Source: Halomonas organivorans (lineage in GTDB: Bacteria > Pseudomonadota > Gammaproteobacteria > Pseudomonadales > Halomonadaceae). From it: DNA of 64,000 nucleotides. The notes under the pieces are model-generated. The model did not search any database. It was not told the origin of the DNA and saw nothing but the letters and a program-made list of their open reading frames with translations. Every line of letters starts with the position of its first letter. The first letter of the stretch is position 1. The stretch covers positions 1 through 64,000 of the forward strand of contig NZ_JACHXM010000019.1 in the NCBI RefSeq assembly GCF_014192055.1. The letters run 5' to 3'. Positions 225 through 4,950 of this stretch are shown here, one piece after another. The position numbers and the translations under genes are program-made.

Positions 225-1295
225 TCAGGCGCCCTGGCGCAGGCGCTCCGCGGCGTTCGTCAGCAGATGCTCGGTGGTCTCCCAGCCGATGCAGGCGTCG
301 GTGACCGAGACCCCGTGGCGCAGCTTGCCCGGCGCCAGCGACTGCTTGCCCTCGTGGAGGTGGCTCTCGAGCATCAGCCCCATCAGCGAGGCGTCCCCCG
401 CCAGACGCTGCCCCAGCACGTCGAGCATCACCTCGCTCTGGCGGCGGTGGTCCTTGCGGGCGTTGGCATGGCTGCAGTCGACCATCAGTCGCGGCGACTG
501 GCCGGCTTCTTCCAGGGTGCGACGCGCCGCCGCCACCTGGGGCGCGCGGAAGTTAGGCTCGCCGTGGCCGCCACGCAGCACCGCGTGGGTGTGGGAGTTG
601 CCAGGCGTCTCGCGCATCATCGGCCGGCCGTCCGCTCCCATGGCGAAATGCTGGTGAGGATGCGCCGCGGCACGCATGGCATCCACTGCCACCTGCAGGT
701 CGCCGCTGGTGGCATTCTTGAAGCCGACCACCGCCTCGAGGCCGCTGGCCAGCTCGCGGTGTAGCTGGGATTCGGTGGTGCGGGCGCCGATCGCCACCCA
801 GCTCAGCAGGTCGTCGAGGTAGGGTGCCAGCATCGGCTGCAGCAGCTCGGTGGCCACCGGCAGGCCCAGCTCGGCGATCTCGCGCATCAGCGAGCGCGAC
901 AGCTCGAGGCCGCGCGCCAGGTCGCCGCTGCCGTCCAGGTCCGGGTCGTAGGCCAGGCCCTTCCAGCCGACGGTGGTGCGCGGCTTCTCGACATAGACGC
1001 GCATCACCAGCAGCAGCCGATCCTCGACCGCAGGCGCCAACGCGGCCAGCCGGTGGGCGTACTCGAGGGCCGCCTCGGGATCGTGGATCGAACAGGGGCC
1101 GACCACTACCAGCAGCCGGTCGTCGTGGCCGGCGAGGATATCGCGTATGGCCTGGCGCTGGCCGGCGATGCGCCGGGCGAGCGCCGGTTCGAGCGGCAGG
1201 GCCCGGTGAAGTTCCGCCGGCGTAGGCAGAGCGGACTGGGCAGGACGGGTCGCAGCGGACTCCGAGCGGGAAGCGAGGGAAACGGGGGCGTTCAT
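225..1295 (-). CDS. aroG: 3-deoxy-7-phosphoheptulonate (DAHP) synthase, class I
   Basis: Condenses phosphoenolpyruvate and erythrose 4-phosphate in the first step of the shikimate pathway to Phe, Tyr and Trp. The 356-residue length fits the AroF/AroG/AroH family. Family motifs are present: GPCSIHDP at 66-73 with the metal-ligand Cys68, the MRVYVEKPRTTVGWKG block near 98-113, GFKN at 191-194, LRGG at 240-243, DCSHAN at 273-278, and the late acidic ligand in LMLESH near 310. The start ATG lies 7 bases after the stop of a short aromatic-rich frame, which suggests translational coupling. Which amino acid gives feedback inhibition cannot be read here, so the aroG symbol denotes the family only. 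The upstream region looks like an attenuator. Confidence 0.95.
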   Translation of the reverse strand: MNAPVSLASRSESAATRPAQSALPTPAELHRALPLEPALARRIAGQRQAIRDILAGHDDRLLVVVGPCSIHDPEAALEYAHRLAALAPAVEDRLLLVMRVYVEKPRTTVGWKGLAYDPDLDGSGDLARGLELSRSLMREIAELGLPVATELLQPMLAPYLDDLLSWVAIGARTTESQLHRELASGLEAVVGFKNATSGDLQVAVDAMRAAAHPHQHFAMGADGRPMMRETPGNSHTHAVLRGGHGEPNFRAPQVAAARRTLEEAGQSPRLMVDCSHANARKDHRRQSEVMLDVLGQRLAGDASLMGLMLESHLHEGKQSLAPGKLRHGVSVTDACIGWETTEHLLTNAAERLRQGA

Positions 1296-1302
1296 AGGGG
1301 CA

Positions 1303-1467
1303 TCAACTCCGTGAGCGGGAACATCGGGGTGTGGTCATGCCACCGGCAAGCCCACGGTCGGAGGTGGCGCACTGACCCGACCGCATGTCGATAAATCGCC
1401 AGCCATAGCCGTAATAGTCCCGGCCCAGGGTGCGGAACTCGGCGTAGCGGCAATCGAATGCGGTCAT
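1303..1467 (-). CDS. second aromatic-rich leader-type peptide before DAHP synthase
   Basis: A 54-residue frame starting at ATG 1467, with a GAGGAG ribosome site about 8 bases upstream. Eight of its first 25 residues are aromatic (F4, Y8, F11, Y18, Y19, Y21, W23, F25). The remainder is polar and unremarkable. It begins just after the strong hairpin at 1501-1539 and ends 7 bases before the aroG ATG, so ribosomes finishing it could reinitiate on aroG. Within and after the aromatic codons, 6-7 base segments can pair in two mutually exclusive ways (1377-1383 with 1355-1361, or 1363-1368 with 1339-1344). Reading it as a regulatory leader is inference; it could be a small protein of unknown role. 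Confidence 0.5.
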   Translation of the reverse strand: MTAFDCRYAEFRTLGRDYYGYGWRFIDMRSGQCATSDRGLAGGMTTPRCSRSRS

Positions 1468-1500
1468 GGGTCGTCTCCTCGGAATGATGGTGTTGAAAAC

Positions 1501-1539
1501 GCAGAACCCCCGGGCGGGATTGCCGTCCGGGGGTTCTGC
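1501..1539 (-). terminator. attenuator-like hairpin between the two leader frames
   Basis: A perfect 13-base-pair stem (1501-1513 with 1527-1539) has a 13-base loop. On the minus strand it is followed directly by GTTTTC, a short U run. It lies after the stop of the first leader peptide and before aroG, as expected of a transcription attenuator. GGTTTAGC, inside the Trp-Phe codons of the first leader, can pair with GCAGAACC in the 5' arm with one mismatch, a possible antiterminator. The pairing is seen; the regulatory role is inferred. Confidence 0.6.
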
Positions 1540-1591
1540 ATGTCGGAGGCAACCCTGGGCGGGGCGTGCCTCGCGGCGTCGTCCTGTGCTG

Positions 1592-1738
1592 TCAGGAACC
1601 GGCCGCCGGCACGCCGTCGCTAAACCAGTAGCCCGGCCAATAATAGCTGACGCCGACGACGCTCTCGTGACCACGGGCCAGCGACGCCGAAGCGGCGGTC
1701 GGGGCAAGGCGCGCAGTGGTGAGCGGTTTCGGTGTCAT
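1592..1738 (-). CDS. aromatic amino acid leader peptide (candidate)
   Basis: A 48-residue frame with an AGGAGAG ribosome site. Residues 31-40 read SYYWPGYWFS, six aromatic residues in ten (Tyr three times, Trp twice, Phe once). The rest is Ala/Thr/Pro-rich and has no domain. The frame is followed by the strong hairpin at 1501-1539 and then by the aroG region. This is the classical layout of ribosome-mediated attenuation, in which stalling at scarce charged tRNA changes RNA folding, as in trp and phe leaders. A leader carrying all three aromatic residues before DAHP synthase would sense the total products of the pathway. The layout is seen directly; function is inferred. It is too short for most gene callers. 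Confidence 0.65.
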   Translation of the reverse strand: MTPKPLTTARLAPTAASASLARGHESVVGVSYYWPGYWFSDGVPAAGS

Positions 1739-1765
1739 GGGCGGTCTCTCCTGTGTACATGCAAC

Positions 1766-1794
1766 ATCCTGCCCTCTCGCGGGCGGGATGACAA
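1766..1794 (-). promoter_or_regulatory. possible promoter for the aro leader transcript
   Basis: On the minus strand, TTGTCA is followed after 17 bases by CAGGAT. The -35 box is good and the -10 box poor (3 of 6). A transcript starting here would begin about 20 bases before the first leader ATG, as in known amino acid attenuators. Confidence 0.3.
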
Positions 1795-1801
1795 GGCTCC
1801 G

Positions 1802-1930
1802 TCAGCCGGTGGCCAGCTGAACCCAGGCAATGGTGGCCGGCAGGCAGCTCATCCCGACCAGCACCGCCAGGCCCAGGAAAACCGCCAGCATGCCGCTGTC
1901 ATCCTTGAAGTTCTCGTCATGTCCCGTCAT
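1802..1930 (-). CDS. small single-span membrane peptide
   Basis: A 42-residue product from ATG 1930, preceded by a GAGGAG ribosome site; the frame stays open further upstream, but without a comparable start. The first 13 residues are acidic and polar (MTGHDENFKDDSG). Residues 14-40 are hydrophobic and form one predicted membrane span containing a single Cys. It lies 34 bases after folM in the same direction and could be the last gene of the ubiD-fre-folM unit. I do not recognise a family and assign no function. The ribosome site and clean hydrophobic pattern argue that it is real. Confidence 0.55.
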   Translation of the reverse strand: MTGHDENFKDDSGMLAVFLGLAVLVGMSCLPATIAWVQLATG

Positions 1931-1964
1931 CGGAGGCTCCTCTGTGTTGGAATTTTTTTGCAGT

Positions 1965-2678
1965 CTAGCGAAGGTGACGCCCGCCATCGACCGGTAGCGT
2001 GACCCCCGTCACGTAGCGGTTGTCGAGCAGGTAGCGCAGGCTCTGGTAAATGACGCCGGGCCCGGGAATCATGTCCATCGCCGACTTGGCCCTGGCCTTC
2101 TCGGCGTAGGCCTCGTCGTCGTCCTCGTTGAGCATGATCATCGCCGGCGCGATGGCGTTGACCTGGATCGTCGGCGCATACATGGCGGCGAACGACAGGG
2201 TCAGGTTCTCGAGCCCGGCCTTGGTGGCGGCGTAGGCGGCGTGCTTGCGCGAGCCCTTGTGCGCCACGTAGTCGGTCATGTGCACGATGTCACTCATCGG
2301 TTCGCTGCAGGCTTCGAGCAACGGACGGGCGCCAAGGTTGATCAGGTAGGGCGCCAGCATATGCACCCTGAACAGTCGCTCGAAGTTGTCGCCGGCCTCG
2401 GGGCCGTCGACGTCCGGTGCCCAGTCGCTGGCGTTGTGGACGATGGCGCGCAGCGAGGTAGTCTCGGCGCGTAGTCGCTCGAGAAAATCCTCGATGCCGG
2501 CCTGGCTAGCGAAATCGGCCTGCAGGGTGACGATGCCCCGGCTGCGCAGCGTCTCGAGCTCCTCGCGCTCGCGACGGTAGCTGACGATCACCGGGTGCCC
2601 CTCGTCGCGCAGCCGCTCGGCGCAGTGGCGACCCAGCCGCTGGGCGCCGCCGGTGATCAGGATCGGCGAGGCGCTCAT
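1965..2678 (-). CDS. folM: dihydromonapterin reductase FolM
   Basis: A short-chain dehydrogenase/reductase that reduces dihydromonapterin (and dihydrofolate weakly) with NADPH, supplying tetrahydromonapterin. At 237 residues it matches FolM. It has the nucleotide loop TGGAQRLG at 9-16, and the catalytic Tyr149/Lys153 pair in YAATK. The stretch HMTDYV near 133-138 replaces the usual catalytic Ser and closely resembles the HITDYV segment of E. coli FolM, which separates it from FabG-type reductases. Its start overlaps the end of fre by 4 bases, so the two are probably co-translated. A generic SDR enzyme is the alternative. Confidence 0.85.
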   Translation of the reverse strand: MSASPILITGGAQRLGRHCAERLRDEGHPVIVSYRREREELETLRSRGIVTLQADFASQAGIEDFLERLRAETTSLRAIVHNASDWAPDVDGPEAGDNFERLFRVHMLAPYLINLGARPLLEACSEPMSDIVHMTDYVAHKGSRKHAAYAATKAGLENLTLSFAAMYAPTIQVNAIAPAMIMLNEDDDEAYAEKARAKSAMDMIPGPGVIYQSLRYLLDNRYVTGVTLPVDGGRHLR

Positions 2679-3460
2679 GCCCGCGATTCCCTCACCAGGC
2701 TGCCCACCGTGGGCACCAGCGGGTCGCGAGGGGCATAGGCGAAGACGTCGGAGAACACGCGCGAGGGCTCGACCCCCAGCGACGCCAGGACATCGACGCA
2801 GGCATAGACCATCCCCGGCGAGCCGGAGAGGTAGACGTCATGGCCGGAGACATCGACGTCGTCGAGGGCTTCGCCCAGGGCGGCGTCGATGCGGCCGGCA
2901 TGCCCCTGGATGCGCTCGGCGGCGAAGTCCGCTTCCATGCCCTGCTCGCTGACGCCGTGGAAGGTCACGTTCGGGTGCTGGGCGGCCCACTCCCGCGCCA
3001 GGCTCTCCAGGTAGAGCTCGCGGCGCTCCTTGGCCGCCCACCACAGGGAGATCTCGCGCTCGGGGTCGGCATGCAGTGCAGCCTCGACGATGGCCTTCAT
3101 CTGGGCGAAGCCGGTGCCGGCGGCGACCAGCAGCAGCGGGCGGACGCTGTCCGGATCGAGCACGCAGTCGCCGCCGGGCAGGCGCAGGGTCAGGTGCTGG
3201 GCTTCCACCAGCAGCTCGCGCAGCCGCGCCGAATTGGAGCGCTCGGGCCAGTGCTGGATATGCAGCTCCAGGCGGCCGTCGCCGCCATGGGCGTTGGCGA
3301 TGGAGAACGGCACCCAGGTCTCGGGGTCCAGCTGCATCTCCAGGTACTGGCCGGGCGCATGGGCCATGGCTTCGGCGCGGCCCTCCAGGTGAACCCGGAA
3401 GACGTCGGGGGTGAGGTCCTCGACCTCGACGACCTGGCAGGTCAGGGTCCTTGCCGTCAT
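2675..3460 (-). CDS. fre: NAD(P)H-flavin reductase, Fre family
   Basis: A ferredoxin-reductase-fold protein of 261 residues that passes electrons from NAD(P)H to free flavin. The flavin-binding PFSIAN segment lies at 51-56, and the nicotinamide-binding [16 protein letters not shown] block at 109-124. No iron-sulfur cluster cysteines are present, so it is a flavin reductase rather than a CDP-6-deoxyglucoseen-type reductase with a ferredoxin domain. It overlaps the end of ubiD by 4 bases. That pairing makes sense because UbiD needs prenylated FMN made from reduced FMN, and fre next to ubiD is common in gammaproteobacteria. The direct metabolic link is inference. Confidence 0.85.
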
Positions 3461-4950
3461 GAATGCCTCTTGTCGATGTCAGGGGTGTCGATGCCCAGCT
3501 CGGCCCAGCGTTCGCTGACGCGGTCCTTGACGGCCGCGTCCATGACGATGGGCGTGCCCCATTCGCGATCGGTTTCACCGGGCCACTTGTCGGTGGCATC
3601 CAGGCCCATCTTGGAGCCCAGCCCCGCCACCGGCGAGGCGAAATCCAGATAGTCGATGGGGGTGTTCTCCACCATCACGGTATCCCGCGCGGGGTCCATG
3701 CGGGTGGTGATGGCCCAGATCACGTCTTCCCAGCGGCGGGCGTCGACATCATCGTCGAGCACCACCACGAACTTGGTGTACATGAACTGGCGCAGGAAGC
3801 TCCACACCCCCATCATCACTCGTTTGGCATGGCCGGGGTACTGCTTCTTCATGGTCACCACCGCCATGCGGTAGGAGCAGCCCTCCGGGGGCAGGTAGAA
3901 GTCGACGATCTCGGGGAACTGGCGGCGCAGGATGGGCACGAAGACCTCGTTGAGCGCCAGGCCGAGGATCGCCGGCTCGTCCGGCGGACGGCCGGTGTAG
4001 GTGGAGTGATAGATGGCGTCGCGACGCATGGTCATGCGCGTCACGGTGAACACAGGAAAGGTCTCCACCTCGTTGTAGTAGCCGGTATGATCGCCGTAGG
4101 GGCCTTCCGGGGCGGTATCGTCGGGGTACAGGAAGCCTTCGAGGATGATCTCGGCGGAGGCCGGCACCTCGAGGTCGGCGTGGCCGCATCGGACCAGCTC
4201 GGTGCGCGAGCCTCTCAGCAGCCCCGCGAAGGCATACTCGGCGAGACTGTCCGGCACCGGCGTCACCGCGCCGAGGATGGTCGCCGGGTCGGCGCCCAGC
4301 GCCACCGCTACCGGGAAGGGCTCGCCGGGATGCGCCTGACTCCACTCCTGGAAATCCAGGGCGCCGCCGCGATGCGACAGCCAGCGCATGATCAGCCGAT
4401 TGCGCGACAGCTTCTGCTGGCGGTAGATCCCCAGGTTCTGGCGCTTCTTGTGGGGTCCTCGGGTGACCACCAGCGGCCAGGTCACCAGCGGCGCCGCGTC
4501 ACCCGGCCAGCAGTGCTGGATGGGCAGGCGGTCGAGATCGACGTCATCGCCTTCCAGCACCACTTCCTGCACCGGCGCACGCTTGAGCCGCTTGGGCCCC
4601 ATGCTCATGACCTGCTTGTAGACCGGCAGCTTGTCCAGGGCATCGCGAAAGCCCTTGGGCGGCTCTGGTTCCTTGAGGAAGGCCAGCAGCTCCCCGACCT
4701 CGCGCAGCGCGCTGACCGAATCCTGGCCCATGCCCATGGCGACCCGCTTCGGCGTGCCGAAGAGGTTGCCGAGCAGCGGCATGTCATGGCCCTTGACGTT
4801 CTCGAACAGCAGCGCCGGCCCGCCTGCCTGCAGGGTGCGATCGCAGATCTCGGTGATTTCCAGGTAGGGATCCACCTCGGCGGTGACGCGCTTGAGCTCG
4901 CCCTGTGCTTCCAGCGCGGCGATGAACTCACGCAGGTCCTTGTACTTCAT
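3457..4950 (-). CDS. ubiD: 3-octaprenyl-4-hydroxybenzoate decarboxylase UbiD
   Basis: Decarboxylates the polyprenyl hydroxybenzoate intermediate of ubiquinone synthesis using prenylated FMN. From ATG 4950 the product is 497 residues, the usual UbiD length. An in-frame extension upstream to 5130 runs through the rho terminator hairpin and is not coding-like, and GGAAGG lies just before ATG 4950. The cofactor and active-site region is visible as NLGIYRQQ at 172-179 and EGPYGDHTG at 282-290. It heads the ubiD-fre-folM unit, with 4-base overlaps joining all three genes. Confidence 0.95.

Follow-up and report, generated by a model that had tools for sequence, protein, structure and literature searches.

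The region upstream of the DAHP synthase gene in the stretch of DNA analysed here (64 kb in full; the window) is very probably a ribosome-mediated transcription attenuator, in which a single leader peptide (ORF1) reads Tyr, Trp and Phe; behind it comes another aromatic leader, ORF2. At the level of sequence, a leader frame, codons for the end products, an intrinsic terminator and an antiterminator that excludes it are all present. The occurrence of an aromatic leader together with a hairpin in front of DAHP synthase is confirmed as real and lies far beyond chance, and the leader probably senses all three end products at once.

Organization of the locus

The switch elements and the DAHP synthase gene all lie on the minus strand (Table 1). 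In profile searches the enzyme exceeds the cut-offs of NF009395 (PRK12755; 502 bits, cut-off 343) and TIGR00034 (439 bits, cut-off 173), while the NCBIfam cut-off for the AroG equivalog is not reached. The gene had been called aroG in a preliminary description of this DNA; it does encode a class I DAHP synthase, but PRK12755 is the subfamily that fits it best and the AroG equivalog is the more distant one, and 'aroG' is therefore a loose name. The same description had reported a 48-codon frame with a ribosome site and a Tyr/Trp/Phe cluster, followed by a perfect 13 bp stem and a short U run, all of which were recovered at the positions in Table 1. The ORF1 peptide ends in ...VSYYWPGYWFSDGVPAAGS (the tail is also given as ...SYYWPGYWFSDGVPAAGS). 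Between the terminator and the gene lies ORF2 (peptide ...GRDYYGYGWRFIDMRSG...), a second aromatic frame that had been overlooked.

Table 1 Features of the leader region and of the DAHP synthase gene in the window
Feature	Position	Strand	Details
Predicted sigma-70 promoter	1766..1794	-	TTGTCA (1794-1789), 17-nt spacer, CAGGAT (1771-1766); predicted by motif score
Leader ORF1	1592..1738	-	48 codons, ATG start, ribosome site GGAGAGA; aromatic control codons Tyr-Tyr-Trp-Pro-Gly-Tyr-Trp-Phe
Match to Rfam RF00627 (Pseudomonas sRNA P15)	1507..1646	-	31.9 bits, E 4e-4; below the gathering score of 70
R1 (GGCGTGCC)	1608..1615	-	Gly-Val-Pro codons right behind the aromatic codons; pairs with R2
R2 (GGCACGCC)	1563..1570	-	Past the ORF1 stop codon; pairs with R1 or R3
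R3 (GGGTTGCCTCCG)	1544..1555	-	Pairs with R2 or, as antiterminator, with R4; compensatory changes
Terminator hairpin	1539-1527 / 1513-1501	-	Perfect 13 bp; 52-nt spacer after ORF1
Terminator 5' arm and loop	1516..1539	-	Contains R4 (CGGACGGCAATCC, 1529-1517); covariation
Terminator 3' arm (R5)	1501..1513	-	Followed by a four-U run (1499-1496)
Leader ORF2	1303..1467	-	54 codons, ribosome site GAGGAG; aromatic stretch DYYGYGWRF; 7 nt from the stop to the start codon of DAHP synthase (ATG, 1295)
ORF2 codons TGG CGA TTT	1393..1401	-	Trp-Arg-Phe; conserved motif
H-type pseudoknot	1339..1383	-	Stem 1 1383-1377/1361-1355 (CGGTCGG/CCGACCG), stem 2 1368-1363/1344-1339 (GCCACC/GGTGGC)
DAHP synthase ribosome site	1310-1307	-	GGAG, inside the last ORF2 codons
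Class I DAHP synthase (3-deoxy-7-phosphoheptulonate synthase)	225..1295	-	356 aa; NF009395, TIGR00034, PF00793

Among the 840 frames of at least 12 codons in the six reading frames of the 64 kb window, ORF1 is the only one with six or more aromatic residues within nine positions and with Tyr, Trp and Phe all represented. A simple terminator scan of the window gave one site, against 0.7 expected in shuffles; to such a scan the hairpin alone is unremarkable, and its conservation is what stands out.

The predicted promoter reaches a score of at least 8 of 12 in 101 of 143 loci of the family (88/715 shuffles) and in 15 of 47 Pseudomonas-type loci (38/235 shuffles), with a median of 27 nt between the end of the -10 element and the leader ATG. 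A stricter scan of the window did not pick up the promoter at 1794-1766. Directly upstream of it is a 61-codon frame (1802-1987, minus strand), possibly a small membrane protein, which adjoins genes resembling SDR, flavin reductase, UbiD and Rho (names by inspection).

Conservation of the leader and terminator

The 161 genomes of the family (Halomonadaceae) that were searched mostly hold two DAHP synthases. Orthologs of the gene described here, termed type A, were found in 143 genomes, the window itself included, with identities of 56-90%, and the upstream regions of all 143 were taken. The other 18 gave only weaker matches with no full-length type A gene (including G002, G004, G018, G022 and G024; genera g3, g5, g19, g22 and g24); in one of these, G006, the type A gene was matched in two pieces and has the leader in front (L029).

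Alignment across the family, as proposed in the preliminary description, shows the aromatic cluster and the hairpin to be conserved in every ortholog examined. An ORF1 leader ending in a Tyr/Trp/Phe cluster precedes all 143 type A genes (in L249 after correction of the frame by hand), and the mixed composition noted beforehand also holds, all three residues being present in 143/143 family tails and in 47/47 Pseudomonas-type tails. A hairpin with a stem of 9-18 bp lies 40-71 nt past the ORF1 stop at 143/143 loci; the U run is short, with no more than three T in 10 nt at 16 of them. The named loci of Halomonadaceae and of the Pseudomonas type all score as leaders (69/69), a set that is not independent of the 143 because its 22 Halomonadaceae partly repeat the same genomes. 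Leader plus terminator is found at none of seven loci of the type B paralog. Within the 18 control loci (these seven and 11 distant or paralogous DAHP synthases) the leader score is at most 3 in 17, L101 having no upstream sequence; the exception is L257, a type B locus with a score of 6 and no terminator. These counts supersede a stricter first pass that demanded a U run and found 197 of 230 loci positive, after which 13 missed type A loci were re-read; a regular-expression search for terminators missed three named loci that do bear leaders (L037, L041 and L044).

With the best-scoring start taken, ORF1 begins with ATG in 140/143 family loci and has a ribosome site of at least four bases in 92/143; for the Pseudomonas type both features are present in 47/47. 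The ratio pN/pS is 0.67 for ORF1, 0.66 for ORF2 and 0.36 for the start of the enzyme, and an indel test gave gap lengths in the leader frames that are not clearly multiples of three. Selection on the sequence of the leader peptide would thus appear to be weak.

The codons of the leaders differ from those of the enzyme gene, for which only the first 50 codons were counted at most family loci. In the family ORF1 tails TTT makes up 211/275 Phe codons (7/81 in the enzyme gene) and TAT 250/294 Tyr codons (90/175); the corresponding figures for the Pseudomonas type are 113/129 (12/233) and 106/114 (31/276). In the motif region of family ORF2, CGA accounts for 117/207 Arg codons, compared with 70/1592 in the enzyme gene. 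An exception to the preference for U-ending codons is ORF2 of the Pseudomonas type, where TAT is used for 45 of 179 Tyr codons. We take this bias to reflect selection for slowly read codons, although a constraint at the RNA level could also account for it.

A proposed five-segment switch

The helices R1:R2, R2:R3, R3:R4 and R4:R5 share segments and cannot all coexist. They resolve into two non-crossing states, R1:R2 with R3:R4 (read-through) and R2:R3 with R4:R5 (termination). Covariation was assessed on all 133 distinct family sequences, with 500 shuffles and slid pairings as controls, and for these helices it exceeds that in 500/500 shuffles. The read-through state has a covariation of 0.209 (0.131 shuffled, at most 0.072 slid) and the termination state 0.206 (0.103 shuffled, at most 0.072 slid), with 0/500 shuffles as high in either case. 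The shuffles alone are no proof because they ignore how the sequences are related. Relatedness is kept in the slid control, and both states reach about three times the best slid value. An earlier selection of 80 sequences gave covariation of the same sign.

Of the individual helices, the terminator R4:R5 has 99.0% of cells paired and R2:R3 has 92.3 and 96.0%. For R1:R2 the value is 91.1%, with five of eight pairs changed on both sides, one of them being U-A in 56 sequences and C-G in 47. The inner part of R3:R4 is paired in 91.7% of cells, with one pair U-A in 78 sequences and C-G in 39 others; for the outer part the value is 77.8%. R1:R2 forms its full 8 bp at 110/143 family loci with cognate segments, against 46% when segments are swapped between species, and the values for R3:R4 are 91/143 and 42%; no such advantage of cognate segments is seen at loci of the Pseudomonas type. 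The segments in these later tests were defined by position. A greedy hairpin search for the segments, which cut R3 short, had given little cognate advantage for R1:R2 or R3:R4, and an RNAalifold consensus of the 143 sequences yielded little, being blurred by misalignment.

The antiterminator supported by covariation consists of R3, after the leader stop, and R4, in the upper terminator arm and loop. The preliminary description had envisaged competing folds, with the Trp-Phe codons pairing with the 5' arm of the hairpin. Mutually exclusive helices are indeed supported, through R3:R4, but the Trp-Phe pairing finds no support in folding or covariation. In partial transcripts of the family that extend to R4, more of R4 pairs upstream with a ribosome placed at the last Trp codon than with one at the stop codon at 50/143 loci; the reverse holds at 5/143, and the difference is no more than 1 nt at 88/143. 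The same folding for the Pseudomonas type gives 28/47 and, in reverse, 2/47. In full-length folds the terminated state is the more stable one at 133/143 loci, and masking of R1 leaves R3:R4 the stronger helix, relative to R2:R3, at 82/143; the choice must therefore fall during transcription. The antiterminator is also favoured in partial transcripts folded without a ribosome, so the model predicts read-through of an untranslated leader, unlike trp. Nor is the arrangement of the four-segment trp type, in which segment 1 overlaps the control codons and there are helices 1:2, 2:3 and 3:4 only; here R1 comes after those codons, and the support extends to four helices in succession. Several folds of the Pseudomonas type show a helix between the control codons (GGGTATTGG) and the stretch past the stop codon.

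From what is observed of the frame, its composition, the hairpin, their conservation and the covariation, we infer the direction of the switch, the stalling of the ribosome and the response to starvation. When charged Tyr-, Trp- or Phe-tRNA is scarce, the ribosome would stall on the aromatic codons upstream of R1; R1:R2 would form, R3 would be free to pair with R4, the terminator would be blocked and the gene would be transcribed. When all three amino acids are plentiful, the ribosome would reach the stop codon and cover R1, so that R2:R3 and R4:R5 could form and transcription would stop. The short terminated RNA would be P15 in Pseudomonas.

Correspondence with the P15 RNA

The Rfam model RF00627, typed by Rfam as Gene and not as Cis-reg, spans the last part of ORF1 together with the terminator. 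Twenty loci were scanned with it: the 16 that bear a leader, all of the Pseudomonas type, scored above the cut-off with a match where ORF1 ends, and the four leaderless ones did not. Of 61 family genomes, 54 gave a match at E ≤ 1, one of them above the cut-off; at this loose limit there were matches in 2 of 14 control genomes as well. Across 293 genomes of the order, 27 from three families match at E ≤ 0.001, and none of the control genomes does; all 23 of the newly fetched P15 loci have an aromatic leader before DAHP synthase. The catalogued 'sRNA P15' thus appears to be the same attenuator, the element coinciding with it in Pseudomonas-type loci. The reference P15 of P. aeruginosa presumably lies before PA1750. 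A search with RF00514 (His leader) gave nothing above the cut-off on the transcribed strand and one sub-threshold match on the opposite strand. The model RF01669 (Pseudomonas sRNA P14) matches with 85.5 bits at L111:5313-5447, near a leaderless DAHP synthase of a Pseudomonas.

ORF2 and the pseudoknot

The ORF2 motif TGG-CGA-TTT is present at 113 of 143 family loci, with CGA and TTT in all 113, and at 65 of the 69 named loci, with CGA in 64 of those 65. Every motif-bearing ORF2 of the family contains all three aromatic residues and, with the best-scoring start chosen, begins with ATG (113/113 for both). Eight further family loci have a diverged ORF2 frame with at least three aromatic residues. 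At 22 of the 143 loci ORF1 and the terminator are kept, there is no ORF2 motif and the terminator is 34-113 nt from the gene (L175, L178, L196, L199, L206, L208, L211, L213, L215-L218, L220, L222, L223, L226, L228, L230 and L233-L236); these are natural deletions of ORF2.

The motif is followed by a pseudoknot of 7 + 6 bp, which starts 9 nt past TTT in the window and usually 7-10 nt past it. A flexible search found the complete pseudoknot at 103 of the 113 loci, compared with 52 of 2260 shuffles. Over 104 distinct sequences 96.0% of cells are paired, 10 of 13 pairs have changed on both sides and all five measures lie above 500/500 shuffles. In Cobetia both stems are replaced by other complementary sequences; the RNA pairing is therefore kept where the peptide changes. 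The full pseudoknot occurs at 1/47 Pseudomonas-type loci, and 6 + 5 bp or better at 30/47. The ORF2 Trp codon is lost and CGATTTAGC kept at L121 and L251, and also at L275 and L280, which belong to a third family of the order and in which the nucleotide core therefore outlives the peptide motif.

Relative to the ATG of the enzyme, the ORF2 stop codon falls between -12 and +8 nt at 74/113 family loci, so that translation of ORF2 and of the enzyme is probably coupled; in the Pseudomonas type it lies about 47 nt before the ATG. When the ORF2 segment CCACCTCCG is paired with the enzyme ribosome site, the score is 14.8 for cognate, 13.4 for swapped and 11.8 for shuffled sequences, and the ribosome site is inside the helix of this segment at 40/92 loci. 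Direct pairing between the two, which could hide the ribosome site as in an erm-type translational attenuator, is weakly supported. Programmed frameshifting at TTT into the enzyme was considered and rejected, the enzyme frame in the window being open for just 13 codons upstream of the start (369 aa open, 356 matched).

We regard it as a serious possibility, if short of probable, that ORF2 forms a second, translational checkpoint on transcripts that have passed the terminator. A wider and somewhat unlikely proposal is that of a two-stage sensor, in which the same three amino acids would be read at transcription by ORF1 and then at translation by ORF2, and which may report tRNA modification too. 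In ORF2 the codons TGG-CGA-TTT would hold the ribosome just upstream of the pseudoknot, and the pseudoknot would decide whether the enzyme start opens. The codons for Phe, Tyr and Trp are all UNN and their tRNAs share hypermodification of A37. This shared modification, together with the preference for U-ending Phe and Tyr codons in the leaders, is the reason for considering such reporting, through which iron or sulphur supply might be signalled to the point where the shikimate pathway begins.

Alternative explanations

Two alternatives concern the nature of the element as a whole. P15 might be chiefly a trans-acting sRNA, or ORF1 a trans-acting peptide, the terminator merely marking its end and the position before the enzyme gene being secondary. 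Products of attenuators can act in trans, as exemplified by rhizobial rnTrpL/peTrpL; the Rfam class of P15 points the same way, and PMC2375449 includes P15 in its count of sRNAs that others had detected. As the main function this is nevertheless improbable in view of the aromatic leader before DAHP synthase at all 23 newly fetched P15 loci of the order and of the conservation of the aromatic codons and the mutually exclusive helices; P15 may have a role in trans in addition to attenuation. A metabolite-binding riboswitch in place of an attenuator read by ribosomes was raised in 2008, when it was suggested from synteny common with the TPP riboswitch that P15 'may correspond to a riboswitch' (PMC2527527, in the text available), and the conserved pseudoknot and invariant nucleotide core of the ORF2 region would suit it. 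Yet no known riboswitch family of Rfam was found at E ≤ 5 across positions 1000-3500, and the start codons and aromatic codons are conserved, which makes a riboswitch quite improbable.

Other readings accept the same elements and assign them different roles. Were the two frames to encode small functional proteins, with the hairpin an ordinary terminator, the prevalence of ATG starts reported above for both ORF1 and ORF2 would be expected; the pN/pS values of the two frames, the covariation of the antiterminator helices and searches of Pfam and NCBIfam, in which neither of the window's two frames had a match at E ≤ 1, make this hard to believe. We give equally little credence to the Trp-Phe codons as the antiterminator strand. 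GGTTT and GAACC are complementary by inspection, with G-U included, but a ribosome stalled at these codons would cover them, the pairing is missing from the minimum-energy folds of the window and a different antiterminator, R3:R4, covaries. A possibility that is compatible with attenuation at ORF1, and that we consider tenable without being likely, concerns ORF2 alone: it could be a brake or coupler and not a sensor, its translation barring Rho or bringing ribosomes to the enzyme start, and its aromatic codons lowering expression under starvation. The position of its stop codon at the enzyme start would fit, as would the finding that the simple scan of the window shows no second terminator-like site between ORF2 and the DAHP synthase gene. 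Against this, the three aromatic residues in every motif-bearing ORF2 and the covarying pseudoknot, usually 7-10 nt past TTT, suggest that the position of the ribosome is sensed.

Implications

If the attenuator operates as proposed, all three aromatic amino acids would share a single control point where their synthesis has its first committed step, and would do so in a large bacterial group that includes Pseudomonas and Halomonas production hosts. In the available text of two engineering papers the native enzyme is either altered where feedback acts on it or considered with regard to feedback inhibition; attenuation or a leader peptide is unmentioned there. A catalogued 'small RNA' would become a cis-regulator with a testable mechanism, and the loss of ORF2 with ORF1 kept (22/143) would offer a natural experiment on tandem leaders.

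Comparison with known systems

Attenuation before DAHP synthase is already known. For mixed sensing, the tandem leader and the identity of P15 we found no description in open papers. The AroR leader of the aroF (DAHP synthase) operon of C. glutamicum, described with mention of the trp and phe attenuators (PMC11802643; see also PMC4046766), resembles ORF1 in being a leader peptide with aromatic codons that acts by attenuation before a DAHP synthase gene. As far as the available text of these papers goes, AroR differs in its Phe-Tyr-Phe composition with no mention of Trp, in reportedly responding to Phe and not to Tyr, in belonging to another phylum and in having no second leader mentioned; the comparison is by description and not by sequence homology. 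The Acholeplasma uORFC-13-1 motif before aroF (PMC8632094, in the text available) likewise combines a small frame with an intrinsic terminator before a DAHP synthase gene, but has Phe codons only and comprises 24 sequences from one genus and from environmental samples. A Tyr-sensing attenuator is tabulated for aroF in the accessible part of a Shewanella study. A full-text search of open papers, in the parts available, found no mixed Tyr, Trp and Phe leader before DAHP synthase and no mention of such a leader in three families, nor a tandem leader with a pseudoknot or P15 described as an attenuator; the comparative studies Panina 2001 and Vitreschak 2004 could already contain such a description. 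The preliminary remark that no example of this composition had been described thus stands for the mixture, but DAHP synthase leaders as such have been described in Corynebacterium (Phe-Tyr-Phe) and Acholeplasma (Phe).

The enteric trp, phe and his attenuators combine a leader peptide, whose control codons specify the end product, with helices that exclude one another and an intrinsic terminator. These parts are common to the element described here, but each enteric attenuator reads one amino acid, whereas ORF1 carries three. The five segments in Halomonadaceae lead to the prediction that an untranslated leader is read through, unlike that of enteric trp. The Pseudomonas-type folds, with their extra helix over the control codons, are nearer to his. 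The tandem frames of mgtCBR sense different signals, whereas ORF1 and ORF2 have one set of three aromatic residues in common. Two short frames within one leader, as here, are described for the tandem attenuators of Salmonella mgtCBR (PMC3641672, in the text available).
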